Positions 6,781 through 64,000 of a stretch of DNA of 64,000 nt are shown here, piece after piece; positions within the stretch are counted from its first letter, which is position 1; each line of letters starts with the position of its first letter. The notes beneath the pieces were generated by a model. It made no database searches. It worked only from the letters and a program-made list of their open reading frames with translations, and was not told the origin of the DNA. The translations under genes and the position numbers were made by a program. Origin of the DNA: Streptomyces antibioticus. GTDB taxonomy: Bacteria; Actinomycetota; Actinomycetes; Streptomycetales; Streptomycetaceae. The stretch is taken from assembly GCF_001514065.1 (NCBI RefSeq), contig NZ_KQ948423.1, forward strand, positions 641,692 to 705,691, read 5' to 3'.

Positions 6781-6883
6781 CGGGTGTATGAATACGTCCT
6801 GCTCGTGATCGTCTTCTCACCTTTCACGTGGCAGGCGGAATGACGGAAGGCCCCCGCGAGGACGTGACTCGCGGGGGCCTTCC
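6781..6883 (+). ncRNA. Candidate s-SodF-like small RNA from the sodF 3'UTR
   Basis: The 3'UTR between the sodF stop and its terminator end is 103 nt. In S. coelicolor a roughly 90-nt RNA processed from the sodF 3'UTR pairs with the sodN ribosome-binding region and destabilises it. Here TCACCTTTC (6817-6825) is perfectly complementary to a GAAAGGTGA Shine-Dalgarno, which fits that role. The target sodN is not in the window and processing is not shown. Confidence 0.45.
6845..6883 (+). terminator. Bidirectional terminator, sodF and methyltransferase
   Basis: A perfect 16-bp stem GGAAGGCCCCCGCGAG / CTCGCGGGGGCCTTCC has a 7-base loop. It lies between the convergent sodF (+) and methyltransferase (-) genes and can serve both strands. 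It would also be the 3' end of the candidate sRNA. Confidence 0.88.
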
Positions 6884-6898
6884 GGTGCGCGGGGCAGC

Positions 6899-7675: not shown

Positions 7676-7687
7676 GTGCCCATGGTG

Positions 7688-8314
7688 CTACGGAAGGTGC
7701 AGGTCGCACGGCACATTGAGGGAGAGAAGTGCGGCGGATCCCGTGGCGGTCACACGGAGTTCGGTGACCGCCGCGTTCTGCAACCGCGGGAGGACCCGGC
7801 GGTACTCGCCGAGCGGGACGGACAGCAGCGTGCACAGGGCCAGCCGGAGCAGGGTGTTGTGGGCCACGACGAGGACGCGCTCGCCGGAGTGGGCCCGCGC
7901 GATGCGGCGCAGGGCGGCGACGCCGCGCTCCGCCGCCTCCTTCGGGTCCTCGGCGCCGGGGAACGGGTGCGCCACGGGATCGGCGCGGTACGCCTCCGCC
8001 GCCTGCGGGTTCTCCGCCGCGAACTCGGCGAGCGTACGGCCCTCCACCACCCCGAAGTCGCATTCGCGCAGGCCGGGTTCGGGGTGGGAGGTGAGGCCGA
8101 GGGCGCGGCAGACGGGGGCGGCGGTGGCGATGGCCCGCGAGACCGTGGACGTCCAGATCGCGTCCACGGGGTGGGCAGCGGCCCAGCGTCCGAGGGCCTC
8201 GGCCTGGGCGCGGCCCTCGTCGGTGAGGGCGATGTCGCTGACGCCGGCGTAGCGGTTCTCGGCGTGCCAGACGGTCTGGCCGTGGCGGACGAGGAGGAGG
8301 GTCGTACTGCTCAT
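7688..8314 (-). CDS. Histidine phosphatase family protein (phosphoglycerate-mutase-like)
   Basis: This is a 208-residue single-domain phosphatase. The catalytic RHG motif is at the N-terminus (LLLVRHGQTVWHAENRYAG), the second arginine is in the SRAIATAAPV region, the acid donor is in LRECDFGVVEGRT, and the second histidine is in VLVVAHNTLLRLAL. The short form resembles broad phosphatases such as CobC/GpmB-like enzymes more than cofactor-dependent glycolytic mutase. The ATG at 8314 overlaps the stop of the upstream FGGY kinase as ATGA (8311-8314), so kinase and phosphatase are co-translated. This suggests that both act on the same sugar or sugar phosphate. That link is inference. Confidence 0.9.
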   Translation of the reverse strand: MSSTTLLLVRHGQTVWHAENRYAGVSDIALTDEGRAQAEALGRWAAAHPVDAIWTSTVSRAIATAAPVCRALGLTSHPEPGLRECDFGVVEGRTLAEFAAENPQAAEAYRADPVAHPFPGAEDPKEAAERGVAALRRIARAHSGERVLVVAHNTLLRLALCTLLSVPLGEYRRVLPRLQNAAVTELRVTATGSAALLSLNVPCDLHLP

Positions 8315-9744: not shown

Positions 9745-9885
9745 CCCGGCCTCCCACACGTCCGCAACCATCTTCCGCCGTCGGGGCCGATCGAGCCCGG
9801 GTGCGGTAGCGGAGCGAGGGATTTCGGGGGCGGGTTCGGCGCGCACGCGCTGTACTACGAACTCGGAGAAGCCGAGGAGGGGCCG

Positions 9886-10113
9886 ATGTTCTTCGCGAAC
9901 AAGTACTGCCCGACCTGCAGGAAGTACGACCGGAAGTTCCGCAAGCTCGAAGGCCGGGAGTGGACGGTGGTCGAGCAGCGGCATCGCGGCAGGACCGACC
10001 TGTGGCGCTGCACCTCCGCGGGCTGCCGCTTCTACCAGCCCGCGCACAACCAGCGCGACGGCGCCCGGCTCCCGGAGGAGTTCCGGAACCCGGCCGCCGA
10101 GCCCGCGGAGTGA
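9886..10113 (+). CDS. Small four-cysteine protein, probable zinc ribbon
   Basis: This 75-residue protein is not assigned to a named family. GAGGAGG at 9874-9880 is well spaced from the ATG at 9886, and codon use is GC3-rich, so it looks genuinely coded. C8-x2-C11 (KYCPTCRKY) and C42-x4-C47 (WRCTSAGCRFY) make a plausible zinc site; the region between is basic and aromatic (KFRKLEGREWTVVEQRHRGR). This layout resembles small zinc-ribbon nucleic-acid or protein adaptors, but no function is claimed. It is divergent from the FGGY kinase and convergent with the DsbA-like gene, with only 3 bases between its stop and theirs. Confidence 0.7.
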   Translation: MFFANKYCPTCRKYDRKFRKLEGREWTVVEQRHRGRTDLWRCTSAGCRFYQPAHNQRDGARLPEEFRNPAAEPAE

Positions 10114-10116
10114 TCC

Positions 10117-10779
10117 CTACAGGTTGCTGAAGTCCGGACCCTTGGTCCGGGTGCGCTTGATCTCGTAGAAGCCGGGGACCGAGGCGACGGCCAGGGTGCC
10201 GTCCCAGAGGCGGGCCGCGTCGTCGCCCTTGGGGGCCGGGGTGACGACCGGTCCGAAGAAGGCGATCTGTTCGCCGTCGGGGCCGGGGACCGCGATCACG
10301 GGGGTGCCGACCTCCTGGCCGACCTTCTCTATGCCCTCCTTGTGGGAGGCGCGCAGCTCGGCCTCGAACTCGAAGTCCTCCTGGTCGGCGTAGTCGATCA
10401 GGTCGGCGGGGAGCCCGGCGTCGGCCAGGGCACCGGCGATGGCCTCCGGCGTGGGGCCTTCGCCGTTGTTGTGGAAGCGGGTGCCGAGTGCGGTGTAGAG
10501 CGGGCCGAGGACGTCCGCGCCGTGCTTCTGCCAGGCCGCGGTCACCACACGCACCGGCTTCCACGCCTTGGTCGCCAGCATGTCCCGGTACTCCTCGGGC
10601 AGCTGGTCGATCTTGTCCTCGTTGAGCACGGCCAGGCTCATGATGTGCCAACGCACCTCGATGTCCCTGACCTTCTCCACCTCCAGCACCCACCGCGAGG
10701 TCATCCAGGCCCAGGGGCACAGCGGGTCGAACCAGAAGTCGACAGGGGTCTTCGCGGAGGTGCTCGCGGTCTCGGACAT
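10117..10779 (-). CDS. DsbA-family thiol oxidoreductase, Rv2466c-like
   Basis: This 220-residue cytoplasmic thioredoxin-fold protein closely resembles the mycobacterial mycothiol-dependent enzyme Rv2466c. Shared features are VDFWFDPLCPWAWMTSRW, IMSLAVLNE, VLGPLYTALGTRFHN, the cis-Pro segment VGTPVIAVPG and the end FYEIKRTRTKGPDF. The active site is C21-P-W-A24: the second cysteine present in Rv2466c as I remember it (CPWC) is alanine here, which would make this a monothiol enzyme. It lacks an export signal. The ATG at 10779 follows AGGAG. A SigR-type promoter lies 36 bases upstream, so induction by thiol oxidation is expected. Confidence 0.88.
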   Translation of the reverse strand: MSETASTSAKTPVDFWFDPLCPWAWMTSRWVLEVEKVRDIEVRWHIMSLAVLNEDKIDQLPEEYRDMLATKAWKPVRVVTAAWQKHGADVLGPLYTALGTRFHNNGEGPTPEAIAGALADAGLPADLIDYADQEDFEFEAELRASHKEGIEKVGQEVGTPVIAVPGPDGEQIAFFGPVVTPAPKGDDAARLWDGTLAVASVPGFYEIKRTRTKGPDFSNL

Positions 10780-10814
10780 GCGTCTCCTAAGGAAAGTGTT
10801 CGATTCAAGACGAG

Positions 10815-10841
10815 AACGTCGTCCGTCCCCGTGCCATTCCC
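10815..10841 (-). promoter_or_regulatory. SigR-type promoter of the DsbA-like gene
   Basis: On the minus strand GGGAAT (10841-10836) is followed after exactly 18 bases by GTT (10817-10815). This matches the SigR consensus GGGAAT-N18/19-GTT of Streptomyces. The expected transcript start near 10808 leaves a leader of about 29 bases. The orthologous gene in mycobacteria is under SigH, the SigR counterpart. Confidence 0.8.
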
Positions 10842-10928
10842 TGCTCCCGACCGTCAGGGGCACATGGCAGGATCGGTGCTGTCCACATACCGAACACCAC
10901 CCGCTGTCGACTTCAGGGAGTGCCGCCC

Positions 10929-13502
10929 GTGCCCGGTGAGAATCTGTCCCGCGACGAGGCCCGGGAGCGGGCCGCCCTGCTCTCCGTCGACGGGTACGAC
11001 GTGTCCCTCGACGTGCGTTCGGCCGTCGAGGACGGCGACGAGTCCCCGCGCACCTTCCGGTCCGTCACCACGATCCGCTTCCGCTGCGCCGAGCCCGGCG
11101 CCACCAGCTTCGCCGACCTGATCGCGCCGAGTGTGACCTCCGTCTCCCTCAACGGCCGTGATCTCGACCCGGGTGAGGTCTTCGACGGTTCCCGGATCAC
11201 GCTGGAGGACCTCGCCGCCGAGAACGAGCTGGTGGTGGACGCCCGGTGCGCCTACTCCCGCACCGGCGAGGGACTGCACCGCTTCGTCGACCCCGAGGAC
11301 GGCGAGGTCTACCTCTACACGCAGTACGAGCCGGCCGACTCCCGCCGGGTCTTCGCCAACTTCGAGCAGCCCGACCTCAAGGCCCCGTTCCGCTTCGAGG
11401 TGCGGGCGCCGGAGGAGTGGACGGTCTGGAGCAACGGGGCCGGGGAGCGCGCGGACGGCGTGTGGCGGTTCGCGGAGACGAAGCCGATCTCGACGTACAT
11501 CACGTGTGTGGTGGCCGGCCCGTACCACTACGTGACCGACTCCTACTCCCGCACCCTCGCCGACGGCAGCACGCTGGAGATCCCGCTCGGCGCGATGTGC
11601 CGCAAGGGCCTCGCCCCGCACTTCGACTCCGACGACGTCTTCCTCGTCACCAAGCAGGGCCTGGACTTCTTCCACGACCACTTCGACTACCCGTACCCGT
11701 TCGGGAAGTACGACCAGGCGTTCGTGCCCGAGTACAACCTCGGCGCGATGGAGAACCCGGGACTGGTCACCTTCCGCGAGGAGTTCATCTTCCGCGGCAA
11801 GGTGACGCAGACGTCCTACGAGGGCCGGGCCAACGTCATCCTGCACGAGATGGCGCACATGTGGTTCGGCGACCTGGTCACCATGGTGTGGTGGGACGAC
11901 CTGTGGCTGAAGGAGTCCTTCGCGGACTTCATGGGCACGTTCGCCAACGTGGGCGCGACCCGCTTCAAGGACGCCTGGATCACCTTCGCCAACCGCCGCA
12001 AGGCGTGGGCGTACCGCGCCGACCAGCTCCCCTCCACGCACCCCATCACCGCCGACATCCGCGACCTCCAGGACGCGAAGCTCAACTTCGACGGCATCAC
12101 GTACGCCAAGGGCGCCTCGGTGCTCAAGCAGCTGGTGGCGTACGTCGGGCAGGACGCGTTCCTGGAAGGCGCGCGGCGCTACTTCAAGCGGCACGCGTAC
12201 GGCAACACGCGTCTCGGTGATCTGCTGTCGGTCCTTGAGGAGACCAGCGGCCGGGACATGGCGGCGTGGTCGCGGTCCTGGCTCCAGACGGCGGGCGTCA
12301 ACTCGCTCACCCCGCAGGTGCTGTTGAGCGCCGAGGGCCGGATCACCGAGCTGGCGGTGTTGCAGGAGGCCGCCGAGTCGCACCCCGAGCTGCGCCCGCA
12401 CCGGATCGCGGTGGGCCTGTACCGCAAGGGCGCCGACGGCGCCGTCGAGCGGTACGCGCGCGTCGAGGTGGACGTCGACGGGCCGCGTACGGTCGTGCCG
12501 GAGCTGGTGGGCGCCGAGGCGCCGGAGCTGGTGCTGGTCAACGACGACGACCTGACGTACTGCAAGACGCGTTTCGACACGGGGTCGCTGGAGACGCTGA
12601 AGGCGCACCTCGGTGATCTGACGGACCCGCTCGCCCGTGCCCTGTGCTGGTCCGCGCTGTGGAACATGACGCGGGACGCGCTGCTGCCGGCCCGCGACTT
12701 CGTGGACCTGGTGCTGCGCTTCGCGGGCCGCGAGTCGGACATCGGCGTGCTCCAGATGCTCCAGGCGTGGGCGCACTCCTCGCTGGTCAACTACGTGGCG
12801 CCGGAGTGGCGTGCGACGGGTGAGCGGCTGCTCGCCGAGGGGGCGCTGAAGGAGCTGCGGCTGGCCGAGCCGGGCAGCGAGCACCAGCTGGCGTGGGCGC
12901 GGTTCTTCGCGGCCGTGGCGTCCGGCGAGGCCGATCTCCAGCTGCTCCAGGGCCTGTTGGAGGGGTCGGCGAAGATCGACGGTCTGACGGTGGACCAGGA
13001 GATGCGCTGGGCGTTCCTCGGTCCGCTGGCCGCGCACGGCGTCGCGGACGAGGAGGTGCTGGCGGCCGAGCTGGCCCGCGACGACACCGCGTCCGGCAAG
13101 CGCCACCAGGTCCGCTGCCTGGCCTCGCGGCCGTCGGCGGCGGTGAAGGCGCAGGCGTGGGCACAGGTGGTGGAGTCGGACGCGCTGTCGAACGCGCTGG
13201 TGGAGGCGACGATCGGGGGCTGGAACCAGTCCTCGCAGCGGGAGTTGCTGGCGCCGTACGCGGAGAAGTACTTCGCGGCGATCGAGCGGGTGTGGGCGGA
13301 CCGGTCCATCCAGATCGGGATGGACGTGGTGCGGGGCCTGTTCCCCGCGCTCCAGGACTCGCCCGGCACCCTCGCCGCGACGGACGCGTGGCTGGCCGCC
13401 CACGAGGACGCGCCGCCAGCGCTGCGCCGGCTGGTCCTGGAGGCGCGGGACGACCTGGCGCGGGCGCTGCGCGGGCAGGCGTGCGACGCGAAGGCGGGCT
13501 GA
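10929..13502 (+). CDS. pepN: Aminopeptidase N, M1 family (paralogue 1)
   Basis: This 857-residue zinc metallopeptidase removes N-terminal amino acids from peptides in the cytoplasm; no signal peptide is seen. The exopeptidase motif GAMEN is at residues 272-276. The zinc site HEMAH is at 306-310, with the third ligand E329 in LWLKESFADF. The C-terminal half is the ERAP1-like helical domain. GTG 10929 is preferred over GTG 10920: GGGAG is correctly spaced for it, and the paralogue at 30569 starts with the same VPGxNLxRxEA pattern. It is divergent from the SigR-controlled gene and ends in a strong terminator. The second copy lies 17 kb downstream. Confidence 0.95.
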   Translation: MPGENLSRDEARERAALLSVDGYDVSLDVRSAVEDGDESPRTFRSVTTIRFRCAEPGATSFADLIAPSVTSVSLNGRDLDPGEVFDGSRITLEDLAAENELVVDARCAYSRTGEGLHRFVDPEDGEVYLYTQYEPADSRRVFANFEQPDLKAPFRFEVRAPEEWTVWSNGAGERADGVWRFAETKPISTYITCVVAGPYHYVTDSYSRTLADGSTLEIPLGAMCRKGLAPHFDSDDVFLVTKQGLDFFHDHFDYPYPFGKYDQAFVPEYNLGAMENPGLVTFREEFIFRGKVTQTSYEGRANVILHEMAHMWFGDLVTMVWWDDLWLKESFADFMGTFANVGATRFKDAWITFANRRKAWAYRADQLPSTHPITADIRDLQDAKLNFDGITYAKGASVLKQLVAYVGQDAFLEGARRYFKRHAYGNTRLGDLLSVLEETSGRDMAAWSRSWLQTAGVNSLTPQVLLSAEGRITELAVLQEAAESHPELRPHRIAVGLYRKGADGAVERYARVEVDVDGPRTVVPELVGAEAPELVLVNDDDLTYCKTRFDTGSLETLKAHLGDLTDPLARALCWSALWNMTRDALLPARDFVDLVLRFAGRESDIGVLQMLQAWAHSSLVNYVAPEWRATGERLLAEGALKELRLAEPGSEHQLAWARFFAAVASGEADLQLLQGLLEGSAKIDGLTVDQEMRWAFLGPLAAHGVADEEVLAAELARDDTASGKRHQVRCLASRPSAAVKAQAWAQVVESDALSNALVEATIGGWNQSSQRELLAPYAEKYFAAIERVWADRSIQIGMDVVRGLFPALQDSPGTLAATDAWLAAHEDAPPALRRLVLEARDDLARALRGQACDAKAG

Positions 13503-52902: not shown

Positions 52903-54168
52903 ATGAAACTCACCGTGGTCGGCGGAGGATCGACCTACACCCCCGAACTCATCGACGGCTTCGCCCGCTTGCGGGACACCCTGCCCATCGAGGACCTGGT
53001 CCTGGTCGACCCGTCGGCCAAACGCCTCGACCTGGTAGGCGGCTTGGCCCGCCGCATCTTCTCCAAACAGCACCACGACGGCCGTATCACCACCACCTCC
53101 GACCTGGACGCGGCCGTGGACGGCGCCGACGCGGTGCTGCTCCAGCTCCGCGTGGGCGGCCAGGCGGCCCGCGAACAGGACGAGACCTGGCCCCTGGAAT
53201 GCGGCTGCGTGGGCCAGGAGACGACGGGCGCGGGCGGCCTCGCCAAAGCCCTGCGCACGGTCCCCGTCGTCCTGGACATCGCGGAACGGGTCCGCCGCAC
53301 CAACCCCGACGCCTGGCTGATCGACTTCACCAACCCGGTCGGCATCGTCACCCGGGCCCTCCTCCAGGCGGGCCACAAGGCGGTGGGCCTGTGCAATGTG
53401 GCGATCGGCTTCCAGCGCAAGTTCGCGGCCCTGCTCGACGTCGCCCCCGCCGAGATCCACCTCGACCACGTGGGCCTCAACCACCTCACCTGGGAGACGG
53501 CGGTACGCCTGGGCGGCCCCGAGGGCCGGGACGTCCTCCCCGACCTCCTGACCCACCACGGCGAGGCGATAGCGGCGGACCTGCACCTCCCCCGCCCCCT
53601 CCTCACCCACCTCGGCACGGTCCCCTCCTACTACCTCCGCTACTTCTACGCCCATGACGAGGTCGTACGAGAACTACGCACCAAGCCCTCCCGGGCCGCC
53701 GAAGTAGCCGCGATGGAAGCCCAGTTGCTGTCGCTCTACGCCGACCCCGCCCTGGACGAGAAGCCGGAGCTCCTCGCCAAGCGCGGCGGCGCCTACTACT
53801 CGGAGGCGGCGGTGGACCTGGCCGCGGCCCTGCTCACCGGCGCGGGAAGCCCGTACCAGGTGGTGAACACCCGCAACAACGGCACGCTCCCCTTCCTCCC
53901 CGACGACGCGGTGATCGAAGTGCAGGCGGCGGTGGGCCAGAAGGGCCCCACCCCCCTCCCCGTCGCCCCCCTGGACCCCCTCTACGCGGGCCTGATCGCC
54001 AACGTGACGGCCTACGAGGACCTCGCCCTGGAAGCGGCCCTGCACGGCGGCCGGAACCGCGTCTTCAAGGCGCTGCTCGCCCATCCCCTGATCGGCCAGT
54101 ACGAGTACGCCGACCACCTCACCGACCGACTGATCGCACACAACCGGGAGCATCTCGCGTGGGCATGA
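52903..54168 (+). CDS. GH4 family glycosidase (6-phospho-beta-glucosidase type)
   Basis: This is a 421-residue NAD+- and metal-dependent glycosidase that works by oxidation-elimination. The nucleotide motif is KLTVVGGGSTYTPELIDGF. The family markers are CGCVGQETTGAGGLAKALR, LIDFTNPVGIVTRALL, and the metal ligands C164 (VGLCNVAIGFQRK) and H194 (GLNHLTWE). Family members usually need a 6-phosphorylated substrate, normally supplied by a PTS. Here the importer is an ABC system, so the substrate would have to be phosphorylated in the cytoplasm, perhaps by the kinase encoded next, or the enzyme accepts unphosphorylated sugar. It would cleave beta-glucosides such as cellobiose or an amino-sugar analogue. 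Confidence 0.9.
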   Translation: MKLTVVGGGSTYTPELIDGFARLRDTLPIEDLVLVDPSAKRLDLVGGLARRIFSKQHHDGRITTTSDLDAAVDGADAVLLQLRVGGQAAREQDETWPLECGCVGQETTGAGGLAKALRTVPVVLDIAERVRRTNPDAWLIDFTNPVGIVTRALLQAGHKAVGLCNVAIGFQRKFAALLDVAPAEIHLDHVGLNHLTWETAVRLGGPEGRDVLPDLLTHHGEAIAADLHLPRPLLTHLGTVPSYYLRYFYAHDEVVRELRTKPSRAAEVAAMEAQLLSLYADPALDEKPELLAKRGGAYYSEAAVDLAAALLTGAGSPYQVVNTRNNGTLPFLPDDAVIEVQAAVGQKGPTPLPVAPLDPLYAGLIANVTAYEDLALEAALHGGRNRVFKALLAHPLIGQYEYADHLTDRLIAHNREHLAWA

Positions 54169-55130
54169 CCGCACGTGTCCTCGCCATAGACGCGGGCAAC
54201 AGCAAGACGGACGTCGCCGTCCTGGCCCCCGACGGAACGGTCCTGGCCACGGCGCGAGGAGGCGGCTTCCGCCCCCACACGACAGGCGTCGAGGCGGCCC
54301 TGGACACCGTGGCCGAAGCAGTGACCGAAGCCTTCATCGCAGCCGGAGTCACCACCGCACACCACATCTCGGCGTGCCTGGCGAACGCCGACTTCCCCTT
54401 CGAGGAGGAACAACTGGCCGCGGCCCTGCGAGCCCGCGCCTGGGGCACCACCGTCACGGTCCGCAACGACACCTTCGCCATCCTCCGCGCCGGCGCCGCC
54501 GAACCCCGCGGCGTGGCCGTGGTCTGCGGCGCCGGCATCAACTGCGTCGGCATGCGCCCCGACGGCCGCACCGCCCGCTTCCCGGCGGTGGGCCGCATCT
54601 CCGGTGACTGGGGCGGCGGTTGGGGACTGGCGGAGGAGGCCCTGTGGCACGCGGCCAGGGCAGAGGACGGCCGCGGCGCCCCCACCGCACTGGCCCACAC
54701 CCTGCCCGCCCACTTCGGCCTCCCGTCCATGTACGCCCTGATAGAGGCCCTGCACCGGGAGGACATAGACCCCGCCCGCCGCCACGAACTCACACCCGTC
54801 CTCTTCACCACGGCAGCCGACGGCGACCTCACGGCCCGCGCCCTGGTCGACCGCCTGGCCGAAGAGGTGGTGGCGATGGCCAAAGTGGCCCTGACCCGCC
54901 TGGACCTCCTGGAGGAGGAGACCCCGGTCCTCCTGGGCGGCGGCGTACTGGCGGCACGCCACCCCCAACTGGACACGGCCATACGCAACTTGCTCACCAC
55001 ACAGGCCCCCAAGGCCGTCCCCCGAGTGGTCACGGCAAGCCCGGTACTGGGAGCGGCACTGCTGGGCCTGGACGACGTAGGGGCACCCGCAGAGGCCCAG
55101 ACCCGTACACGAGACCACTACGAGCCCTGA
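54159..55130 (+). CDS. BadF/BadG-type ATPase, N-acetylglucosamine-kinase-like sugar kinase
   Basis: This is a 323-residue protein with the actin-like ATPase fold of GlcNAc kinases (NAGK). The phosphate-1 loop is VLAIDAGNSKTDVAVLAPDG. Further motifs are VTVRNDTFAILRAGA, VAVVCGAGINCVGM, the DWGGGWGLAEEALWHAAR region, and adenosine-site VLLGGGVLAAR. It should phosphorylate the 6-position of an amino sugar or hexose. GTG 54159 has a well-spaced GGGAG; ATG 54165, overlapping the GH4 stop as ATGA, is an alternative. It is the last gene of the ROK-ABC-GH4 operon and could provide the 6-phosphate needed by the GH4 enzyme. Confidence 0.85.
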   Translation: MGMTARVLAIDAGNSKTDVAVLAPDGTVLATARGGGFRPHTTGVEAALDTVAEAVTEAFIAAGVTTAHHISACLANADFPFEEEQLAAALRARAWGTTVTVRNDTFAILRAGAAEPRGVAVVCGAGINCVGMRPDGRTARFPAVGRISGDWGGGWGLAEEALWHAARAEDGRGAPTALAHTLPAHFGLPSMYALIEALHREDIDPARRHELTPVLFTTAADGDLTARALVDRLAEEVVAMAKVALTRLDLLEEETPVLLGGGVLAARHPQLDTAIRNLLTTQAPKAVPRVVTASPVLGAALLGLDDVGAPAEAQTRTRDHYEP

Positions 55131-55394: not shown

Positions 55395-56864
55395 GTGACA
55401 CACCCGCCGAAAAGCAGCGCGGCACCACCACCGAGCCTCGGCATGCCCACGATGCCGGCCGTACCACCTCAACCAGCACCCCAGGCGCAGGGCAACGGCA
55501 CCCCCACCCCGGCCGCCCCCGCCCCCCAGGAACCCCGCCGCACCGCGTTCGCCGAGGGCCTCGACCGTCTGCGCCACGCGGCCACCACCGAACCCGGCCG
55601 GCTCCGCATCATCGGCGCCTTCCTCGCCGCCCTGGTCATCGCGTTCGGCGCGGTCACGGCCTGGCAGACGAGCGACCGCGCGGCCGCCGCCGACGACGTC
55701 CTCAACAAGAGCCAGCCGCTCAGCAGCGCCGCCGCCGACATCTACCGCAGCCTCGCCGACGCCAACACCGCCGCCTCCAGCGGCTTCCTCGCCGGCGGCC
55801 AGGAGACGGCGACCTCCCGCGACCGCTACGAGAAGGACATCGACAAGGCGGCCGCCGGCCTCGTCAAGGCCGCCGCGAACTCGGACCCCGACTCCCCGGC
55901 CGCGGCCACGGTCACGAAGCTCAACCGCCTGCTGCCGGAGTACAAGGGCCTCGTGGAGCGCGCCCGCACCTACAACCGCCAGGGCTTCCCGGTCGGCGGC
56001 GCGTACCTGCGCTACGCCAACGAGAAGATGCAGAACGACATGCTCCCGGCGGCGGAGGACCTGTACACGAGCGAGAACGAACGCCTCCGCGCCGACTACG
56101 ACGACGCGACGCCCTACCCGTGGGCGGCGATAGCCCTCGGCGTCCTGGTCCTCGCCGCGCTCGCCTGGGCCCAGCACCGCAACTACCGGCGCACCAACCG
56201 GGTCATGAACCACGGCCTGGTCGCGGCGACGGCCACCACGACCGTCGTCCTCCTGTGGCTGGTCGTCGGTCACACCGTCGCCCGCGCGGGCCTGAACGAC
56301 TCCTACGACCACGGCGTCCGTTCCCTCAACGTCCTGCACGACGCCCGCATCGCCTCCCTGAAGGCGCGCGGCAACGAGAACCTCACCCTGGTCGCCCGCG
56401 GCGCCGAGACGGTGACGGTGAAGGACGCGAACGGCGTGGAGCAGACGCTGGACGCGTACGACAGCGACTTCCAGAAGGACATGAAGACCCTCGGCGCGGG
56501 CCTGGCCGAAGCGGCGAAGCTCGCCGACGACAACTCCGGCGAGAAGCCGGTCACCGAGGCCCAGGGCAACATGAAGGAGTGGCAGAACCGCCACAAGGCG
56601 GCCCGCGACGAGGACGACAACGGCAACTACGAGGCGGCGCTGAACCGGGTCATCGGCCCCGAGAACGCCACGGGCGAGTGCTTCGACAGCGTCGACGACA
56701 ATCTCGCCAAGGCGATCGCGCACGAGGAGACCGAGTTCGAGCAGGCGGCCGGCGACGGCCTGGACGCGATGACGGGCCTGACCGTGGGCGCGGCGGTGCT
56801 CGCCGTCCTGGGCGCGGCCGGCGCGGTCCTCGGCATCGGCCGCAGGCTGTCGGAGTACCGGTGA
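55395..56864 (+). CDS. glnX: GlnX-like membrane sensor protein
   Basis: This is a 489-residue protein with four membrane helices: about 68-90 (LRIIGAFLAALVIAFGAVTA), 237-258 (YPWAAIALGVLVLAALAWAQ), 270-292 (GLVAATATTTVVLLWLVVGH) and 455-478. Two helical outside domains sit between helices 1-2 and 3-4, similar to CHASE3-type sensor modules. This topology and the neighbouring GlnH- and PknG-like genes match GlnX of mycobacteria and corynebacteria, which relays amino-acid status from GlnH to PknG. The N-terminal 55 residues are a Pro-rich cytoplasmic tail. The GTG start follows GGGGGAGG. It heads the signalling locus. Confidence 0.85.
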   Translation: MTHPPKSSAAPPPSLGMPTMPAVPPQPAPQAQGNGTPTPAAPAPQEPRRTAFAEGLDRLRHAATTEPGRLRIIGAFLAALVIAFGAVTAWQTSDRAAAADDVLNKSQPLSSAAADIYRSLADANTAASSGFLAGGQETATSRDRYEKDIDKAAAGLVKAAANSDPDSPAAATVTKLNRLLPEYKGLVERARTYNRQGFPVGGAYLRYANEKMQNDMLPAAEDLYTSENERLRADYDDATPYPWAAIALGVLVLAALAWAQHRNYRRTNRVMNHGLVAATATTTVVLLWLVVGHTVARAGLNDSYDHGVRSLNVLHDARIASLKARGNENLTLVARGAETVTVKDANGVEQTLDAYDSDFQKDMKTLGAGLAEAAKLADDNSGEKPVTEAQGNMKEWQNRHKAARDEDDNGNYEAALNRVIGPENATGECFDSVDDNLAKAIAHEETEFEQAAGDGLDAMTGLTVGAAVLAVLGAAGAVLGIGRRLSEYR

Positions 56865-56878
56865 AAGGGGGCGTGACG

Positions 56879-57946
56879 ATGAACGTACGACGTCTGCGGG
56901 CCGGTCTGAAGGGCTGGGGCGGTGTGGCCGCGATGGCGGTGGTCTGCGCCCTCGCGCTCGCCTTCGTGCTGCTGCTGCCGCTGACGCAGTCGAAGGGCGC
57001 CGACGGCACGGCGACCGGCGGCCCCGGTGTGGCCCACGGCAGCCAGGCGCGGGCCGAGGACGACCCCTGCCAGGACCCGCAGATCGTGAAGGCGCCGGAG
57101 AAGCAGACGCTGTCCCCGTCGGGCGCGGACGGCGACACCATCAAGAAGATCAAGGCCCGGGTGGGCGACAAGCGCAAGCTGATCGTCGGCGTGGACCAGA
57201 ACAGCTACCGCTGGGGCTACCGCAACCCGAACGCCGGCACCAGCGGTGAGCTGGAGGGCTTCGACATCGACCTGGTGCACCGGATCGCCGCCGAGATCCT
57301 CGGCGACCCGAACGCGGTGCTGTTCAAGGCGATCCCCACCAACCAGCGCATCCCGGCGCTCCAAGAGGGCCGGGTCGACATGGTGGTGCGCACGATGACC
57401 ATCAACTGCAAGCGTCTGGGCCAGGTCGCGTTCTCCGCCCCGTACTTCAAGACCGGCCAGCAGGTCCTCGCCCCCAAGTCCTCGCCGATCAAGGGGTACG
57501 ACGACACGCTCGCCGGCAAGAGGATCTGCACGGCGGAGGGTTCGACGGCGAACACCACGCTGACGGACGACCAGAAGGCGGGCAAGCTCCCCGCGACGGC
57601 GAAGATCGTCGAGCCGGTCCCCAACCAGCTCGACTGCCTCGTACGCCTCCAACTCGGCGAGGTGGACGCCGTGGTGACCGACGGCGCCCTCGCCGCGAGC
57701 CAAGCGGCCCAGGACCCGACGGTCCAACTGAAGGGCGAGCCGTTCACGACCGAGTACTACGGCGTGGCGATGAACCTGAAGGCCGACGATCTGGTACGCC
57801 GGGTCAACCAGATCCTGGCGGACTACCGCAAGGACACCGCGAACGGCTGGCAGGCGTCCTACGACAAGTGGCTGTCGGCGACACTGGACAAGGACTCCGC
57901 GAAATCGAAGCCGCCGACACCGGCGGAGTACCTCCGCACGGGCTGA
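56879..57946 (+). CDS. glnH: GlnH-like solute-binding sensor protein
   Basis: This is a 355-residue type 3 amino-acid binding protein. A single N-terminal helix (VAAMAVVCALALAFVLLLPL) leads to the binding domain (RKLIVGVDQNSYRWGYRN; GELEGFDIDLVHRIAAEILG; VDMVVRTMTINCKRLGQVAF; GKRICTAEGSTANTTL; CLVRLQLGEVDAVVTDGALA). There is no lipobox cysteine at the helix end, so it is probably tethered by the helix rather than by lipid. In mycobacteria GlnH binds Asp/Glu-type ligands and signals through GlnX. ATG 56879 follows GGGGG by 7 bases; the longer frame overlaps glnX. Confidence 0.88.
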   Translation: MNVRRLRAGLKGWGGVAAMAVVCALALAFVLLLPLTQSKGADGTATGGPGVAHGSQARAEDDPCQDPQIVKAPEKQTLSPSGADGDTIKKIKARVGDKRKLIVGVDQNSYRWGYRNPNAGTSGELEGFDIDLVHRIAAEILGDPNAVLFKAIPTNQRIPALQEGRVDMVVRTMTINCKRLGQVAFSAPYFKTGQQVLAPKSSPIKGYDDTLAGKRICTAEGSTANTTLTDDQKAGKLPATAKIVEPVPNQLDCLVRLQLGEVDAVVTDGALAASQAAQDPTVQLKGEPFTTEYYGVAMNLKADDLVRRVNQILADYRKDTANGWQASYDKWLSATLDKDSAKSKPPTPAEYLRTG

Positions 57947-58028
57947 GGCAGGCACAGACAGGCACCGCCGGGCAGCTGAACGGCGAGCAACCACCCCCGA
58001 CAACCAGACCAGCAGCGAGAGGTGATCG

Positions 58029-59363
58029 ATGGGCGTCACGGGACCCCCCGGGCCGGTGATGGACCGGGACGAGGTGGACCGTGCGCTGGCGCGGCTCGGC
58101 GCGGAGTACGAGGCGATCGAGACCTCGCTCCTCGCCCTGCAGGACCACTCCGGCCGCAGGCTCCTGGAGGGCGCCGCGCTCACGGGTGTCACCAAGGAGC
58201 GCTGGGCGTCCGCGGAGGCGTCGATCACGCTGCTGTGGGCGTACTTCGACGCGTACACGGACGCGTTGCGCAGCGCCCGGGAGATCAGGTCGCGGCGCCG
58301 CTGGTCCAGCCGTGAGGACCTGGCGGAGCTGACGGAGCTGCTGCGCGGCGAGTCGGTGACGGTCGCGGGAAGCGCCACGGCGACGGCCAACGCCCCGACC
58401 CTGCACGGCGGTTCGGGCAAGCTCAGCGAGCGGTTCAGCCTGGCCACGCTGGTCGACCGGATGAACGAGCTGTACGCGACCTCGCTCGACATGGTGGTCG
58501 CCGCCGACGCGGTGTGGTCGGCGCTGCCCGCGCGGATAGATTTACTGGCCGCCGAGCTCCAGCGCACCCGCAAGCTCGCGCACTCGGTGGGCGTCCGCCC
58601 GGGCGAGCACCCGGCGGGCGACGACCTGGAGCGCATCACGCGCACGCTGACGCACCTGCGCGAGCAGGTGGTCTCCGACCCGCTCGCCTACTGGAACCCC
58701 ACCCCGGGCAGCTCGGCCCCGGGCGGCGGCCGTCCGGACACGACGGTGTACGACCGTGAGGCGCGCGCCCTGGAGGACGTACGCCGGGAGATCGACGCAG
58801 TGCTGACGGTGCGTCAGGACGCGGAGCAGCGGCTGATCAGGCTCCGTGACGTGCTCTCCCGCGCGGACCGCACGCTCGCCGAGGCCCGGACCGCGCGCGG
58901 CGAGGTGCTGGCAAAGATCGCGGCCACGGAGGTGCCGGTCGTCAGCGGTCCGCCGACCGTGCTCCAGGAGCAGCTGGCGACGGCCGCCGAGTACCGCAGA
59001 CACGCCCAGTGGCACCGCCTGTCCCCGCTCCTGGAGTCCCTGGAGCAGAAGGCGGAGGACGAACTGCTGCGCGCCCGCGAGTCGTTGACCGCGGTCACCC
59101 AGCCACTGGCGGTCCGCGCGGAGCTGCGCGGCCGCCTCGACGCGTACAAGGCGAAGGTCGCCCGGCACGGCCTCGCCGAGGACCCGTTCCTGATCGAGCG
59201 CTACGACGCGGCGCGCCGCATGCTGTGGAGCGCGCCCTGCGATCTGCGCGTCGCCGAACAGGCCGTGCTGCGCTACCAGCACGCGGCCGCCGAGCTGCTC
59301 CGCGCCCCGCGGGTGCCGGAGCAGAGCGGGCCAGAGGACCGTAGGGGGGAGGACCGGGCATGA
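58029..59363 (+). CDS. Coiled-coil-rich cytoplasmic protein of the PknG locus
   Basis: This 444-residue protein has no recognised catalytic domain. It is largely helical with heptad-like stretches (VDRALARLGAEYEAIETSLL; DREARALEDVRREIDAVLTV; DAEQRLIRLRDVLSRADRTL; RAELRGRLDAYKAKVARHGL) and has no signal peptide. It starts after GAGAGGTG. Its stop overlaps the pknG start (ATGA), so the two are made together. A scaffold or kinase partner role is likely from position, but this is inference. Such a gene is not part of the mycobacterial glnH-glnX-pknG operon as I know it. Confidence 0.75.
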   Translation: MGVTGPPGPVMDRDEVDRALARLGAEYEAIETSLLALQDHSGRRLLEGAALTGVTKERWASAEASITLLWAYFDAYTDALRSAREIRSRRRWSSREDLAELTELLRGESVTVAGSATATANAPTLHGGSGKLSERFSLATLVDRMNELYATSLDMVVAADAVWSALPARIDLLAAELQRTRKLAHSVGVRPGEHPAGDDLERITRTLTHLREQVVSDPLAYWNPTPGSSAPGGGRPDTTVYDREARALEDVRREIDAVLTVRQDAEQRLIRLRDVLSRADRTLAEARTARGEVLAKIAATEVPVVSGPPTVLQEQLATAAEYRRHAQWHRLSPLLESLEQKAEDELLRARESLTAVTQPLAVRAELRGRLDAYKAKVARHGLAEDPFLIERYDAARRMLWSAPCDLRVAEQAVLRYQHAAAELLRAPRVPEQSGPEDRRGEDRA

Positions 59364-61918
59364 GTCAGGCAGCACAGCAGACCTGTCAGCGACCGGACTG
59401 CGACGGGACGTACGAGGATGTCGGCGGCGGTGAGCTGTACTGCGACACCTGCGGACTCGCGCCGGTGGTGTCGGCCTCCGGCATGGTGAGCTCCCCGCCG
59501 ACCGGCATGACGGGCGGCGGCAAGGGCTCGCGGGGTTCGGGCAGCGGCAGCGCCCGCTCCGGCAGCAGCCGCAGCACCTCGCGCAGCACGTCCCAGTCGT
59601 CGAAGTCCCGGCGCTCGGTGTCGGGGCGCCTGTCCCGCTCCCTGTCGGGCCGTACGACGGGCCGCTCGGTGTCGGTGCGCAGCTCCGGTTCCAGCACCGG
59701 GTCGAGCACCCGCGGGCGGCTGGGTGCCGGCCTGGTGCAGGTGCCGAACGTGCCGCGTCCCGACCCGAGCGCGATGGTGCTGGAGAACCCCGAGGTCCCC
59801 GAGCGCAAGCGGTTCTGCTCCCGCTCGGACTGCGGTGCGCCGGTGGGCCGCTCCCGCGGCGACCGCCCGGGGCGCACGGAGGGCTTCTGCACCAAGTGCG
59901 GCAACCCGTACTCGTTCGTGCCGAAGCTGACGTCCGGCGACATCGTGCACGGCCAGTACGAGGTCGTGGGCTGCCTGGCGCACGGCGGCCTCGGCTGGGT
60001 CTACCTCGCCGTCGACCGCGCGGTCTCCGACCGCTGGGTGGTCCTCAAGGGCCTCCTCGACACCGGCGACCAGGACGCGATGGCGGCGGCGATCTCCGAG
60101 CGGCGCTTCCTCGCGGAGATCGAGCACGCCAACATCGTGCGGATCTACAACTTCGTGGAGCACCTCGACCAGCGGACGGGTTCGCTGGACGGGTACATCG
60201 TCATGGAGTACGTGGGCGGCAAGTCCCTCAAGGAGATCGCCAACGACCGCCGCACCCCGGCCGGCAAGCGCGACCCGCTCCCGGTGGAACAGGCCTGCGC
60301 GTACGGCATCGAGGCCCTGGAGGCGCTCGGCCACCTGCACAGCCGCAACCTGCTGTACTGCGACTTCAAGGTCGACAACGCCATCCAGACCGAGGACCAG
60401 CTCAAGCTCATCGACATGGGCGCGGTCCGCAGGATGGACGACGACGAGTCGGCCATCTACGGCACCGTCGGCTACCAGGCGCCGGAGGTCGCCGAGGTCG
60501 GCCCGTCGGTGGCCTCCGACCTCTACACGGTCGCCCGCACCCTCGCCGTCCTCACCTTCGACTTCCAGGGCTACACGAACGTCTTCGTGGACTCCCTGCC
60601 CGACCCCGACAACATCGAGGTCTTCCGCCAGTACGAGTCCTTCTACCGTCTCCTGGTCCGCGCCACCGACCCCGACCCGGCCCGCCGCTTCGCCTCCGCC
60701 CAGGAGATGGCGGAGCAGCTGACGGGTGTGCTGCGCGAGGTCGTGTCGCTCCAGACGGGGCGGGCGCGGCCTGCCCTGTCGACGCTGTTCGGGCCCGAAC
60801 TGCGGCTCACGGACACGGAGTTGTTCCCGAAGCTGGACGGGGAGGTCTCGCGGCTGGGGGCGCGGGTGGTCGTTCCACGACGCTCCGCCCGGGTCGCTCT
60901 TCCCGCGGCCGCGGGGGGCGCGGCCGTCCCGGTGTCCGTGGGTGCCGCTGCCGTCCCGGTGCCCGGGGGTGCCGCGGCGTTGGTCAAGCCGGTCGCGACG
61001 CCCGCCGCGGCGCTGGCCCTCCCCGTTCCGCGGGTCGATCCCTCCGATCCCAACGCGGGCTTCCTCGCCGGGCTCATGGCGACCGCCGCCGCGGAACTGC
61101 TGGGGGCGCTCGCCGCCGCGCCGGCGCCGTCCGTCGAGACGCGGTTGCGGCAGATCCGGGCATGGCTGGAGAACGGCGACGCGCACACCGCGCTGGAGGC
61201 GCTGGCGCGGGTCGAGGACGAGCGGCCCGACGACTGGCGGGTGGTCTGGTACCGCGGGGTCGCCGCCCTCGTCACCGGCGATCACGAGGCCGCCGCGCTC
61301 GCCTTCGACGCCATCTACGACGCCTTCCCGGGCGAGCCCGCGCCGAAGCTGGCGCTCGGCCTGTGCGCGGAGGTGCTGGGCCAGCTCGACAACGCCGCCG
61401 AGTACTACCGCCTGGTCTGGGCGACCGACCCCAGCTATGTCAGCGCCGCCTTCGGGCTCGCGCGGGTCCAGCTCGCCGCCGGCGACCGCGGCAGTGCCGT
61501 ACGGACCCTGGAGTCGGTGCCGGAGTCGTCCATCCACTACACCGCCGCCCGGGTGGCCGCCGTACGGGCGCGACTGCGTCAACGCACGGCCGCCGCCGGT
61601 GACGTACCGTTCCTTGACGACCTGACCGCCGCCGCCGGGCAGGTCGAGGCGCTGGACGCGTACGGACTGGATCCGGCACGCCGGGAGCAGTTGTCCGCCG
61701 AAGTCCTCGGCTGCGCGCTGGACTGGGTACTCTCCGGTGGCCAGGGCGCCGACCCGGCCGCCCGCCGGGTGCTGCTCGGCAGCGAGCTGGACGAGCGGGG
61801 ACTCCGCTTCGGACTGGAGCGTTCGTACCGCACGCTGGCCCGGCTCGCGCGGGGCGGCGAGGAGAGGATCGACCTGGTGGAACGTGCCAACCGTTACCGC
61901 CCCCGGACGTGGGTGTAG
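59360..61918 (+). CDS. pknG: PknG-like serine/threonine protein kinase with zinc-ribbon and TPR domains
   Basis: This is an 852-residue soluble kinase. An N-terminal cysteine module (C9, C14, C28, C31) precedes a Ser/Arg-rich linker. A second module (C153, C158, C177, C180) is rubredoxin-like, as in PknG. The kinase domain runs from about 198 to 460: ATP lysine K230 (RWVVLKGLL), catalytic D335 and N340 in YCDFKVDNAI, metal-binding D352 in IDMGAVRR (DMG in place of DFG), then GTVGYQAPEV. The C-terminal third is TPR-like helices. In mycobacteria PknG phosphorylates GarA/OdhI to control 2-oxoglutarate flux; the same output is inferred here, though no garA gene is visible. Confidence 0.93.
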   Translation: MSQAAQQTCQRPDCDGTYEDVGGGELYCDTCGLAPVVSASGMVSSPPTGMTGGGKGSRGSGSGSARSGSSRSTSRSTSQSSKSRRSVSGRLSRSLSGRTTGRSVSVRSSGSSTGSSTRGRLGAGLVQVPNVPRPDPSAMVLENPEVPERKRFCSRSDCGAPVGRSRGDRPGRTEGFCTKCGNPYSFVPKLTSGDIVHGQYEVVGCLAHGGLGWVYLAVDRAVSDRWVVLKGLLDTGDQDAMAAAISERRFLAEIEHANIVRIYNFVEHLDQRTGSLDGYIVMEYVGGKSLKEIANDRRTPAGKRDPLPVEQACAYGIEALEALGHLHSRNLLYCDFKVDNAIQTEDQLKLIDMGAVRRMDDDESAIYGTVGYQAPEVAEVGPSVASDLYTVARTLAVLTFDFQGYTNVFVDSLPDPDNIEVFRQYESFYRLLVRATDPDPARRFASAQEMAEQLTGVLREVVSLQTGRARPALSTLFGPELRLTDTELFPKLDGEVSRLGARVVVPRRSARVALPAAAGGAAVPVSVGAAAVPVPGGAAALVKPVATPAAALALPVPRVDPSDPNAGFLAGLMATAAAELLGALAAAPAPSVETRLRQIRAWLENGDAHTALEALARVEDERPDDWRVVWYRGVAALVTGDHEAAALAFDAIYDAFPGEPAPKLALGLCAEVLGQLDNAAEYYRLVWATDPSYVSAAFGLARVQLAAGDRGSAVRTLESVPESSIHYTAARVAAVRARLRQRTAAAGDVPFLDDLTAAAGQVEALDAYGLDPARREQLSAEVLGCALDWVLSGGQGADPAARRVLLGSELDERGLRFGLERSYRTLARLARGGEERIDLVERANRYRPRTWV

Positions 61919-61921
61919 TTG

Positions 61922-63193
61922 ATGTCGCAGATGCCCCAGCAGGCCGCCCTGACGAACTGCCCGAGCTGCGAGGAGCCGCTCGAGTCGGGTGACCGCTTCT
62001 GCGGTGCGTGCGGATACGACCTGTCCGCCGTACCGGCACCTCCCGACGACCACCCGACGCTCGCCGTGAACGGCTCGGCGCCGGTGCCACCGGTCGCCCA
62101 CGACCCCGCGGGCACCGCCCCCGGCGACCACGGCCTGACCCCACCGGCACCGCCGAGCGGCTCGCCCGTCTCGCCGGCCTCCGGGGTGCGCTTCGACCGG
62201 CCCCCGGAGCCCGACGACTATCCGCTCCAGGCGCCGGACCCGCGGGTGGCCGCCGAGACGCCCACGCCGGCGGAGGGCGTGAAGGTGTGCGTGGCCTGCC
62301 GCGCGGGCCACGTCGACCTCGACGGGTACTGCGAGAACTGCGGGCACGCCCAGCCGCGCGAGCGCGACCACATGGAGCAGGAGTGCGGCCCGATGGCGGC
62401 CGTCAGCGACCGCGGCCTGCGCCACCACCGCAACGAGGACGCCTTCGCCGTCGGCACCGCCGCCCTGCCCGACGGCTCGCCCGCGTCCGTGGCGATCGTC
62501 TGCGACGGCGTCTCCTCGGCGACCCGCCCCGACGACGCGTCCCTCGCCGCGTCCCGGGCGGCGAGCGAGGCGCTGCTGACCGCCCTGCCGCGCGGCACCC
62601 ACCCGCAGCAGGCGATGCACGACGCGATCGTCGCCGCCTCCCGCGCGGTCAACGCCCTGGCCGCCGAACCCCAGACGGCCCGCGAGCACGCCCCGCACCA
62701 GAACGCCCCGGCCTGCACCATCGTCGGCGCCGTGGTGACGTCCGGGCTGCTGGTCGTCGGCTGGGTCGGCGACAGCCGCGCCTACTGGGTGCCGGTGGAC
62801 CGCAGTTCGCTGCCGGCCCGTCTCACCGAGGACGACTCGTGGGCCGCGCAGATGGTCGCGGCGGGCCTGATGAACGAGGCGGAGGCGTACGCCGACGAGC
62901 GCGCCCACGCGATCACCGGCTGGCTCGGCGCGGACGCCTACGAACTGGAGCCGCACACCGCTTCCTTCAAGCCGGACCGGCCGGGTGTAGTGGTGGTGTG
63001 CACCGACGGACTGTGGAACTACGCGGAGGCCGCCCAGGAGATGGCCGAGGCCGTACCGCTCGACGCCGCCGTCCGCCCCCTGCACGGCGCCCAGGTCCTG
63101 GTCGGTCACGCGCTGGACGGCGGCGGCCACGACAACGTAACAGTGGCCCTCGTGCCGTTCCCCGCCCCGTCTCAGGGGGCAGGATCGGCCTGA
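61922..63193 (+). CDS. PP2C-family phosphatase with two zinc ribbons
   Basis: This is a 423-residue metal-dependent Ser/Thr phosphatase. Two zinc-ribbon-like motifs precede the domain: C13/C16/C27/C30 (NCPSCEEPLESGDRFCGACG) and C123/C126/C137/C140, separated by a Pro-rich linker. PP2C metal motifs follow in order: SDRGLRHHRNEDAFAV, AIVCDGVSSATRPDD, VVGWVGDSRAYWV, VVVCTDGLWNY and GGHDNVTVALV. It starts 3 bases after the kinase stop (TTG at 61919 is in frame; ATG 61922 chosen). It probably reverses the kinase or dephosphorylates a common target. The ribbons echo those of PknG, perhaps for redox or partner recognition. Confidence 0.9.
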   Translation: MSQMPQQAALTNCPSCEEPLESGDRFCGACGYDLSAVPAPPDDHPTLAVNGSAPVPPVAHDPAGTAPGDHGLTPPAPPSGSPVSPASGVRFDRPPEPDDYPLQAPDPRVAAETPTPAEGVKVCVACRAGHVDLDGYCENCGHAQPRERDHMEQECGPMAAVSDRGLRHHRNEDAFAVGTAALPDGSPASVAIVCDGVSSATRPDDASLAASRAASEALLTALPRGTHPQQAMHDAIVAASRAVNALAAEPQTAREHAPHQNAPACTIVGAVVTSGLLVVGWVGDSRAYWVPVDRSSLPARLTEDDSWAAQMVAAGLMNEAEAYADERAHAITGWLGADAYELEPHTASFKPDRPGVVVVCTDGLWNYAEAAQEMAEAVPLDAAVRPLHGAQVLVGHALDGGGHDNVTVALVPFPAPSQGAGSA

Positions 63194-63240
63194 GGCCGAT
63201 TCGTACGGGGATGCCTCGCAGGACCGGAGGGGACCGGTCC
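63184..63240 (+). terminator. Hairpins at the end of the PP2C gene
   Basis: ATCGGCC-TGA-GGCCGAT (63184-63200) is a perfect 7-bp hairpin whose 3-base loop is the stop codon. GGACCGG-AGGGGA-CCGGTCC (63221-63240) is a second perfect 7-bp hairpin. Neither has a T-tract. They could attenuate transcription into the vWA gene or stabilise the upstream mRNA. Confidence 0.4.
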
Positions 63241-63295
63241 GCACACAGTCGTATGCCCTGCAACCGTGGGGTTCTCAAGGGGGATTCGATCAGGC

Positions 63296-64000
63296 ATGGC
63301 CAATTTCTCGAAGTCCAACGTGCCGCAGTTCTCGGTCGACGTGTACCAGAACGAGTACCTGCCGGAGGGCGGCCGCGAGGTCAACGCCATCGTCACGGTG
63401 AGCGCGACCGGCGGTGGCACCATCGGCACCGCGGTCGGGGCGCCCCATCTCTACACGCCGGGACAGGGCCCGGACGCGGCCGTGGCGATCATGGTCGACT
63501 GCTCGGGGTCGATGGACTACCCGCCGACCAAGATGCGCAACGCGCGTGACGCCACGGCCGCAGCCGTCGACACCCTGCGCGACGGCGTGCACTTCGCGGT
63601 GATCGGCGGCACGCATGTCGCCAAGGAGGTCTATCCGGGCGGCGGGCGGCTCGCGGTCGCCGACGCCACCACCCGCGAGCAGGCCAAGCAGGCCCTGCGC
63701 AAGCTCAGCGCGGGCGGCGGCACCGCCATCGGCACCTGGCTGCGGCTCGCCGACCGGCTGCTGTCCTCGGCGGACGTCACCATCCGGCACGGCATCCTGC
63801 TCACCGACGGCCGCAATGAACACGAGTCACCCGAGGACCTCAAGGCGGCCCTCGACTCCTGCGCCGGGCGCTTCACCTGTGACGCACGGGGCGTGGGCAC
63901 CGACTGGGAAGTGAGTGAAGTCACAGGCATCGCCTCGGCGCTGCTCGGCACCGCCGACATCGTCGCCGACCCGGCCGGACTCGCCGCCGACTTCACGCAG
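63296..64000 (+). CDS. VWA-domain protein (3' end beyond the window)
   Basis: The first 235 residues are visible and the frame is open to the window edge. The protein begins MANFSKSNVPQFSVDVYQNE and has a von Willebrand A domain. The metal-ion-dependent adhesion site is D68-C-S70-G-S72 (AIMVDCSGSMDYPP), with the threonine in GGGTAIGTWL and the acidic residue in ILLTDGRNEHESPEDL. There is no signal peptide, so it is probably cytoplasmic. Related Streptomyces proteins often carry a C-terminal FHA domain that reads phosphothreonine. Whether this one does lies outside the window. It follows the phosphatase by 102 bases. Confidence 0.85.
   Translation, partial: MANFSKSNVPQFSVDVYQNEYLPEGGREVNAIVTVSATGGGTIGTAVGAPHLYTPGQGPDAAVAIMVDCSGSMDYPPTKMRNARDATAAAVDTLRDGVHFAVIGGTHVAKEVYPGGGRLAVADATTREQAKQALRKLSAGGGTAIGTWLRLADRLLSSADVTIRHGILLTDGRNEHESPEDLKAALDSCAGRFTCDARGVGTDWEVSEVTGIASALLGTADIVADPAGLAADFTQ

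Follow-up and report, generated by a model that had tools for sequence, protein, structure and literature searches.

A GlnX-GlnH-PknG locus of Streptomyces with adjoining phosphatase, FHA, vWA and helical proteins: a candidate membrane-coupled phosphorylation module

At the end of a 64,000-nucleotide stretch of Streptomyces antibioticus DNA (NZ_KQ948423.1:641,692-705,691; genome size 10.1 Mb), hereafter the window, genes for the membrane protein GlnX, the binding protein GlnH, and the Ser/Thr kinase PknG stand together with genes for an all-helical protein that we call CC, a PP2C phosphatase, and a von Willebrand factor type A (vWA) protein, and a gene for an FHA-domain protein completes the run outside the window. 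GlnH-GlnX-PknG senses amino acids in mycobacteria and corynebacteria and controls 2-oxoglutarate dehydrogenase via GarA/OdhI. We propose that the products of the extended locus act as a single Ser/Thr phosphorylation module coupled to the membrane, which would have its own writer, eraser, and reader, and we give this reading a probability of roughly 0.6. The strongest evidence that the genes form a functional unit is that their linkage is reshuffled yet unbroken across genomes and that the start-stop overlap of CC and PknG is kept.

Gene content and order across genomes

A match to the PknG_TPR profile is present in 58 of the 61 Streptomyces genomes sampled. We fetched 20 of those 58 loci, that of the window included, and all 20 present the single order GlnX-GlnH-CC-PknG-PP2C-vWA-FHA on a single strand; in one of them, L015 of genome G011, CC is split across two frames. 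Conservation of the neighbours in other streptomycetes was the point on which the original prediction had been staked beforehand, and all seven genes were found adjacent in 20/20 loci.

The same gene set recurs in loci from a named set of genomes and in a class sample of 394 genomes, in which PknG is present in 156 and CC in 106. The named set consists of the best 80 of 593 confirmed PknG candidates, ranked by their likeness to the PknG of extended loci, and extended forms are over-represented in it; PknG, PP2C, vWA, and FHA occur together in 68 of the 80 and all seven genes in 57. Nine of the 12 loci that do not show the four genes stop at a contig edge, and L155, L161, and L184 do not. The 68 loci come from unassigned metagenome-assembled genomes (MAGs) and from 17 assigned families, of which the two represented by Tolypothrix L183 and Phormidium L188 are cyanobacterial. 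Among groups of loci fetched from the class sample, the four-gene core is present in 14/17 for f75 (the Spirillospora family), 4/9 for f76, 4/4 for f7, 1/1 each for f71 and f81, 1/2 for f90, 0/2 for f94, and 1/20 for f3, which we take to be Mycobacteriaceae in the GTDB sense; further cyanobacterial loci have it in 3/4. The assignment of f75 follows from G635, whose GarA position and score are identical to those in the genome of Spirillospora locus L184. Over all 160 loci counted, seven genes are present in 96, the four-gene core in 117, and a bare GlnX-GlnH-PknG in 17. We therefore reject an expansion specific to Streptomyces. The original prediction had credited the expanded module to Streptomyces, and that attribution falls with the finding of the same set in many actinobacterial families and some cyanobacteria; it is the trio that looks derived. 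A PknG system with a resident phosphatase, FHA protein, vWA protein, and new helical protein is thus widespread in actinobacteria.

In the gene-order comparison, which rests on profiles built from the loci themselves, the exact Streptomyces order is found in 78 of 160 loci, and the order CC-PknG-PP2C-vWA-FHA-GlnX-GlnH in 12 (f75 and Actinomadura). Five loci, four of which are cyanobacterial, have CC-PknG-PP2C-vWA-FHA-GlnX and lack GlnH, and the cyanobacterial locus L204 has a unique order, vWA-FHA-GlnX-CC-PknG-PP2C. GlnX and GlnH may therefore lie either 5' or 3' of the core, and linkage is kept. Among the 125 loci that have CC, 98 show an overlap of the CC stop with the PknG start, of the form NTGA (N being A, G, or T). 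We found no description of the extended cluster, that is, of PknG with PP2C, vWA, and FHA neighbours, in the open-licence PubMed Central (PMC) literature, where the operon figure of PMC6069109 might draw extra genes.

The locus and its proteins

As had been predicted from the window alone, genes for a PP2C eraser, a protein resembling a coiled coil, and a vWA protein adjoin a GlnX-GlnH-PknG locus, and domain profiles and coordinates place the six consecutive genes on the + strand (Table 1). The distances between them, from GlnX to vWA, are 14, 82, -4, 0 or 3, and 102 bases. The predicted CC-kinase overlap is an ATGA at 59360-59363, and the predicted 3-base gap between kinase and phosphatase is obtained with an ATG start of PP2C and becomes 0 bases with a TTG start. 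A pattern scan of locus L002 from 1500 to 13400 gave no promoter-like site and, on the + strand, no terminator-like site, so a single expression unit is plausible from sequence; on the - strand, the same scan gave 3 terminator-like sites versus 2.7 expected. The same-strand run ends with FHA, because the next gene 3' of it lies on the opposite strand.

Table 1. Coordinates of the genes and motifs of the locus (window positions unless another locus is named)
Feature	Position	Strand	Basis
glnX, membrane signal-transduction protein	55395..56864	+	NCBIfam GlnX subfamily NF058618 4.8e-155, above cut-off
glnH, predicted extracytoplasmic amino-acid-binding protein	56879..57946	+	SBP_bac_3 3.2e-25; top solved relative, M. 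tuberculosis GlnH 6h1u, 4.1e-43
CC, all-helical protein, 444 aa	58029..59363	+	no family above cut-off; AlphaFold2 fold
CC C-terminal conserved block	59115-59186	+	alignment with relatives
pknG, Ser/Thr kinase (domains: N-terminal ribbon, rubredoxin, kinase, TPR)	59360..61918	+	domain profiles; 2pzi
PknG extra N-terminal zinc ribbon (C-x4-C, C-x2-C)	59384..59452	+	sequence motif
PknG rubredoxin-type ribbon	59816..59899	+	PknG_rubred 9.7e-31
PP2C Ser/Thr phosphatase	61919..63193	+	PP2C_2 3e-13; zinc ribbon 9.5e-7
PP2C N-terminal zinc ribbons, two	61958-62011 and 62288-62341	+	sequence motif
vWA protein, N-terminal portion (gene continues past the window end)	63296..64000 (ATG 63296)	+	VWA_3 4.4e-10
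vWA MIDAS motif D-C-S-G-S	63497-63514	+	sequence motif
FHA, seventh gene, outside the window	L002:11419-13017	same strand as the other six	FHA 1.2e-16

The kinase matches PknG_TPR (PF16918, 6.7e-86), PknG_rubred (PF16919), and Pkinase (PF00069, 5.3e-25), all above cut-off, and its solved relative is PknG itself (2pzi, 2.5e-167). Its catalytic lysine (60038), D-K-N (60356), and DxG (60407) motifs are present, as are the metal-binding motifs NED, DG, GDS, TDG, and DN of PP2C (62429, 62501, 62768, 63002, and 63128). GlnX scores 183.9 bits against the mycobacterial GlnX equivalog model NF041460, which is below the cut-off of 780. A simple motif search of the 117 loci that have all four core genes found the kinase lysine in 114, D-K-N in 106, DxG in 112, PP2C TDG in 117, PP2C NED in 116, the vWA MIDAS in 113, FHA GR in 116, and FHA SxxH in 102.

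The original prediction had allowed for a phospho-reader and suggested that the rest of the vWA gene be checked for an FHA domain. Complete homologues of the vWA protein (L013, L011) have VWA_3 followed by VWA_3_C and no FHA; the reader exists as the separate FHA gene, whose product has N-terminal ribbons, a Pro/Gly-rich middle, and the FHA domain. A complete Streptomyces vWA homologue matches the solved structure 4fx5 at 1.7e-144 across residues 7-450; the listing labels 4fx5 only as 'von Willebrand factor type A' and states no function.

CC matched no family of Pfam or NCBIfam above cut-off. An AlphaFold2 model made from the window protein and 21 relatives, with a mean predicted local distance difference test score of 89.3 and a predicted template modelling score of 0.71, consists of long helices and few short strands. 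A Foldseek comparison of this model to PDB folds gave no match at E <= 0.001 (best 0.48), and the matches from a profile search of PDB sequences, to helical or coiled-coil chains of designed or generic kind, were only weak, the best at 3.3e-4. Given these results, we rejected both a known domain and a simple coiled coil as descriptions of CC. Its most conserved block lies in the C-terminus, around RxELRGRLDAYxAK, and its placement and stoichiometry would suit an adaptor role.

Directly past window base 64000, within the vWA gene, there are 25 N bases (L002:10693-10717), and the open frames differ on either side of them. At the other end of the locus, a sugar-kinase-like gene (54159-55130) closes an upstream sugar-use cluster; 17 of the 20 Streptomyces loci have a homologue of this gene called in the vicinity of the module.

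Zinc ribbons, GlnH, GarA, and the minimal form

Paired cysteine ribbons in the kinase and the phosphatase had been noticed originally; they are present, and ribbons also occur on the FHA protein and on the Streptomyces GarA orthologue. In the 117 extended loci, PknG has at least 2 ribbons ahead of its kinase domain in 106, PP2C has two ribbons in 103, and FHA has at least 1 CxxC-type ribbon in 102 and an N-terminal CPxGH motif in 99. The PknG of the 17 minimal loci has one ribbon in 15 and none in 2; in the f75 minimal locus L047, the single ribbon is the N-terminal one and the rubredoxin is broken. The extra N-terminal ribbon is found in 28/30 extended versus 1/10 minimal rows. The ribbons of the kinase, phosphatase, and FHA protein are probably docking tags, and they could alternatively be redox sensors.

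In the 20 Streptomyces GlnH proteins, Arg147, Thr162, Arg169, and Asp250 (M. tuberculosis numbering) are kept and Ser164 is replaced by Thr and Lys161 by Arg in 20/20. Among the 134 module GlnH proteins, the amino- and carboxyl-binding residues Arg169 and Asp250 are kept in 130 and 128, respectively, and the side-chain residue Arg147 in 133. Position 232 is Trp in 15/17 minimal, 4/97 other, and 0/20 Streptomyces GlnH proteins. PMC6069109 predicted Asp/Glu specificity for Actinomycetales GlnH, and it is at position 232 that the Streptomyces pocket departs from this prediction. No obvious lipobox was seen on reading the sequence of the window GlnH.

The GarA orthologue model NF041660 matches all 61 Streptomyces genomes (61/61) at 178-197 bits, all below the 200-bit cut-off. 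The GarA copy of the window genome has a SETTST motif, that is, an ETT phosphorylation motif, and in all ten Streptomyces GarA proteins that were read a ribbon accompanies the ETT motif region. The GarA/OdhI orthologue at L026:1206-1737 has an N-terminal four-cysteine zinc ribbon and then SETTST. The ribbon is present in Streptomyces (10/10, five of them without PknG), f75 (10/10), f76 (5/5), and f71, f7, and f90 (1/1 each); it is absent from the 14 GarA proteins read from f3 and Nocardia (0/12) and f94 (0/2) and from that of f81 (0/1). Named genomes with the extended module have it in 10 of the 21 read, L239 being unreadable by pattern.

The bare trio is found in mycobacteria-like genomes and in two other lineages. 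Of the 20 f3 loci, 14 are bare GlnX-GlnH-PknG, five have PknG but neither GlnX nor GlnH, and L217 is fully extended; the f3 locus L255 (G551) is also extended, and that of Nocardia colli (L181) is complete except for a called CC. In mycobacteria-like genomes, the extra PknG copies at L209, L210, L215, L218, and L219 (f3) lack GlnX and GlnH. On a tree of 40 PknG proteins, the minimal and extended states require three changes, forced by the starred branches, and a single origin is recovered in 0% of 200 bootstrap trees. A tree in which all minimal loci form a single clade was rejected by the approximately unbiased test (p 0.0007). Because the Acidimicrobiales MAGs, which lie outside the class, have the extended form, we infer that the minimal form is derived and that the three changes are most simply losses; the PknG tree is unrooted, the root is not proven, and with a root on the f3 branch, three losses and one gain plus two losses would be equally short.

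The vWA protein of the Phormidium cluster has a match (E <= 1e-40) in 5 of 194 cyanobacterial genomes, and cyanobacterial PknG branches among actinobacterial PknG in the trees. The patchiness of the cluster in cyanobacteria and this position of its PknG point to horizontal transfer. GarA (E <= 1e-20) has a match in 0/4 cyanobacterial genomes with the module versus 32/32 actinobacterial genomes in the same search, so the module does not require GarA, and control of GarA would be one output of the module, not its defining one.

Competing readings and known systems

In the module that we propose, GlnH would bind a small molecule outside the cell, probably an amino acid, and GlnX would relay the state of GlnH across the membrane. 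PknG would be the writer, PP2C a local eraser, and the FHA protein a local phosphothreonine reader. CC would be made with the kinase by translational coupling and is likely an adaptor between the membrane relay and the kinase, the vWA protein may be a metal-dependent assembly partner, and docking is the likely role of the zinc ribbons at the N-termini of the kinase, the phosphatase, and the FHA protein. GarA would be one probable substrate in actinobacteria, and the FHA protein an output shared by all these organisms, whether or not they have GarA. More tentatively, and as something we regard as possible without yet favouring it, the textbook trio might have arisen by reduction of an ancient seven-protein signalosome that was now and then transferred between lineages. 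In that signalosome, CC would couple GlnX to PknG, paired zinc ribbons would bring the kinase, the phosphatase, and the FHA reader together, and an eraser and a reader of its own would make the response self-contained; control of GarA would have been added in actinobacteria and left as the sole output in mycobacteria.

Several observations weigh against the proposed module. Two Streptomyces loci, L251 (G546) and L252 (G574), have open frames for CC, PP2C, and FHA but no called PknG, vWA, GlnX, or GlnH, and in a third, L253 (G297), PknG, vWA, GlnX, and GlnH are fragments beside open CC, PP2C, and FHA; therefore, PP2C and FHA may serve other kinases. The ratio of nonsynonymous to synonymous polymorphism (pN/pS) of the genes retained in these three loci resembles that of intact pairs at similar distance and does not distinguish selection on them from its absence. 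Diverged second PknG-vWA loci without PP2C also exist (L097, L099, L100, and L101 in f76; L060 in f75). Trp232, an aspartate side-chain contact in M. tuberculosis, is replaced by Gln in 20/20 Streptomyces GlnH proteins, so the same ligand is not to be assumed and the ligand may differ. The idea that a ribbon on GarA strictly marks the extended module was rejected on the counts in named genomes and on its retention in Streptomyces without PknG, and loss of the PknG N-terminal ribbon along with the module rests on three independent pairs (p 0.5). Some of the diverged second loci are flanked by extra GlnX and GlnH copies on the opposite strand.

These losses bear on the reading that GlnH-GlnX-PknG acts on GarA exactly as in mycobacteria, with CC, PP2C, vWA, and FHA forming a distinct phosphorylation pathway that only happens to be encoded beside it. 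CC, PP2C, and FHA do outlive the kinase in L251-L253, Streptomyces does have a GarA with an ETT motif, and PMC6069109 and PMC9769921 describe the trio as functional on its own in mycobacteria and corynebacteria. However, linkage persists through several gene orders, whether GlnX precedes or follows, CC and PknG share their start-stop overlap in most loci that have CC, and the six cyanobacterial loci with these genes (L183, L188, L201-L204; no PP2C is called in L201) keep GlnX, and we consider mere co-location quite unlikely. A main target in envelope or developmental machinery read by the FHA protein, as in PpkA-PppA-Fha, rather than in central metabolism, would agree with the FHA gene lying within the core in 117/160 loci and with the cyanobacterial module genomes that lack a GarA match. 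It is harder to reconcile with the phosphorylation motif kept by GarA in all Streptomyces searched and with TPR and kinase domains that are those of the GarA kinase, and we view it as unlikely.

TerY-P triads combine genes for a kinase, a PP2C, and a vWA protein, and the PpkA-PppA-Fha pathway serves type VI secretion; both resemble our locus in having a kinase, PP2C, and vWA or FHA in one cluster, but the kinase here is of another family and the input is a solute-binding protein with GlnX. No Ter partners, GAP1/GTPase, tellurium, or secretion genes were noticed in the open reading frame lists of the window end and L002, which were not searched specifically for them. The core could nonetheless be a stress or conflict device of this kinase-PP2C-vWA kind, TerY-P-like or of the GAP1-N2 theme, with nutrient sensing incidental. 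PMC7159879 (eLife 2020) describes, for 10% of GAP1-N2 neighbourhoods and in actinobacteria only, zinc-ribbon kinases that lie next to a PP2C and a solitary vWA, and our locus shares with that theme a predicted active zinc-ribbon kinase and an adjoining predicted active PP2C and vWA; the patchiness of the module vWA protein in cyanobacteria would fit as well. In contrast to that theme, the kinase here is PknG with its TPR domain, tied to GlnX and GlnH, FHA, and CC, and the text of PMC7159879 mentions neither GlnX nor PknG. No GAP1-N2 GTPase gene was noticed at the locus, though no dedicated search was made, and PADLOC returned only general kinase and phosphatase matches. Moreover, unlike patchy defence islands, CC is present in 47/47 and PknG_TPR in 45/47 class-sample Streptomyces, one being a remnant. 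We find a conflict device highly improbable.

The Streptomyces locus has in common with the GlnH-GlnX-PknG-GarA/OdhI cascade of mycobacteria and Corynebacterium glutamicum the GlnX family, a GlnH-like protein, the rubredoxin, kinase, and TPR domains of PknG, a one-strand cluster, and a GarA orthologue with an ETT motif in the genome. It adds the CC, PP2C, vWA, and FHA genes and the extra N-terminal ribbon of PknG, and it differs from the mycobacterial cascade in the ribbon of GarA and in a GlnH without the aspartate-contact Trp and without an obvious lipobox.

PknG is among the best-known bacterial Ser/Thr kinases. How GlnX reaches PknG is posed as an open question in PMC9769921, as is the regulation of the opposing phosphatase in PMC10581250. 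The cluster puts a candidate adaptor, phosphatase, phospho-reader, and vWA partner beside the sensor and kinase, which would make both questions testable in common laboratory strains of Streptomyces, and it leads us to suggest that mycobacteria have a derived, minimal version of the system and not the model for the family.

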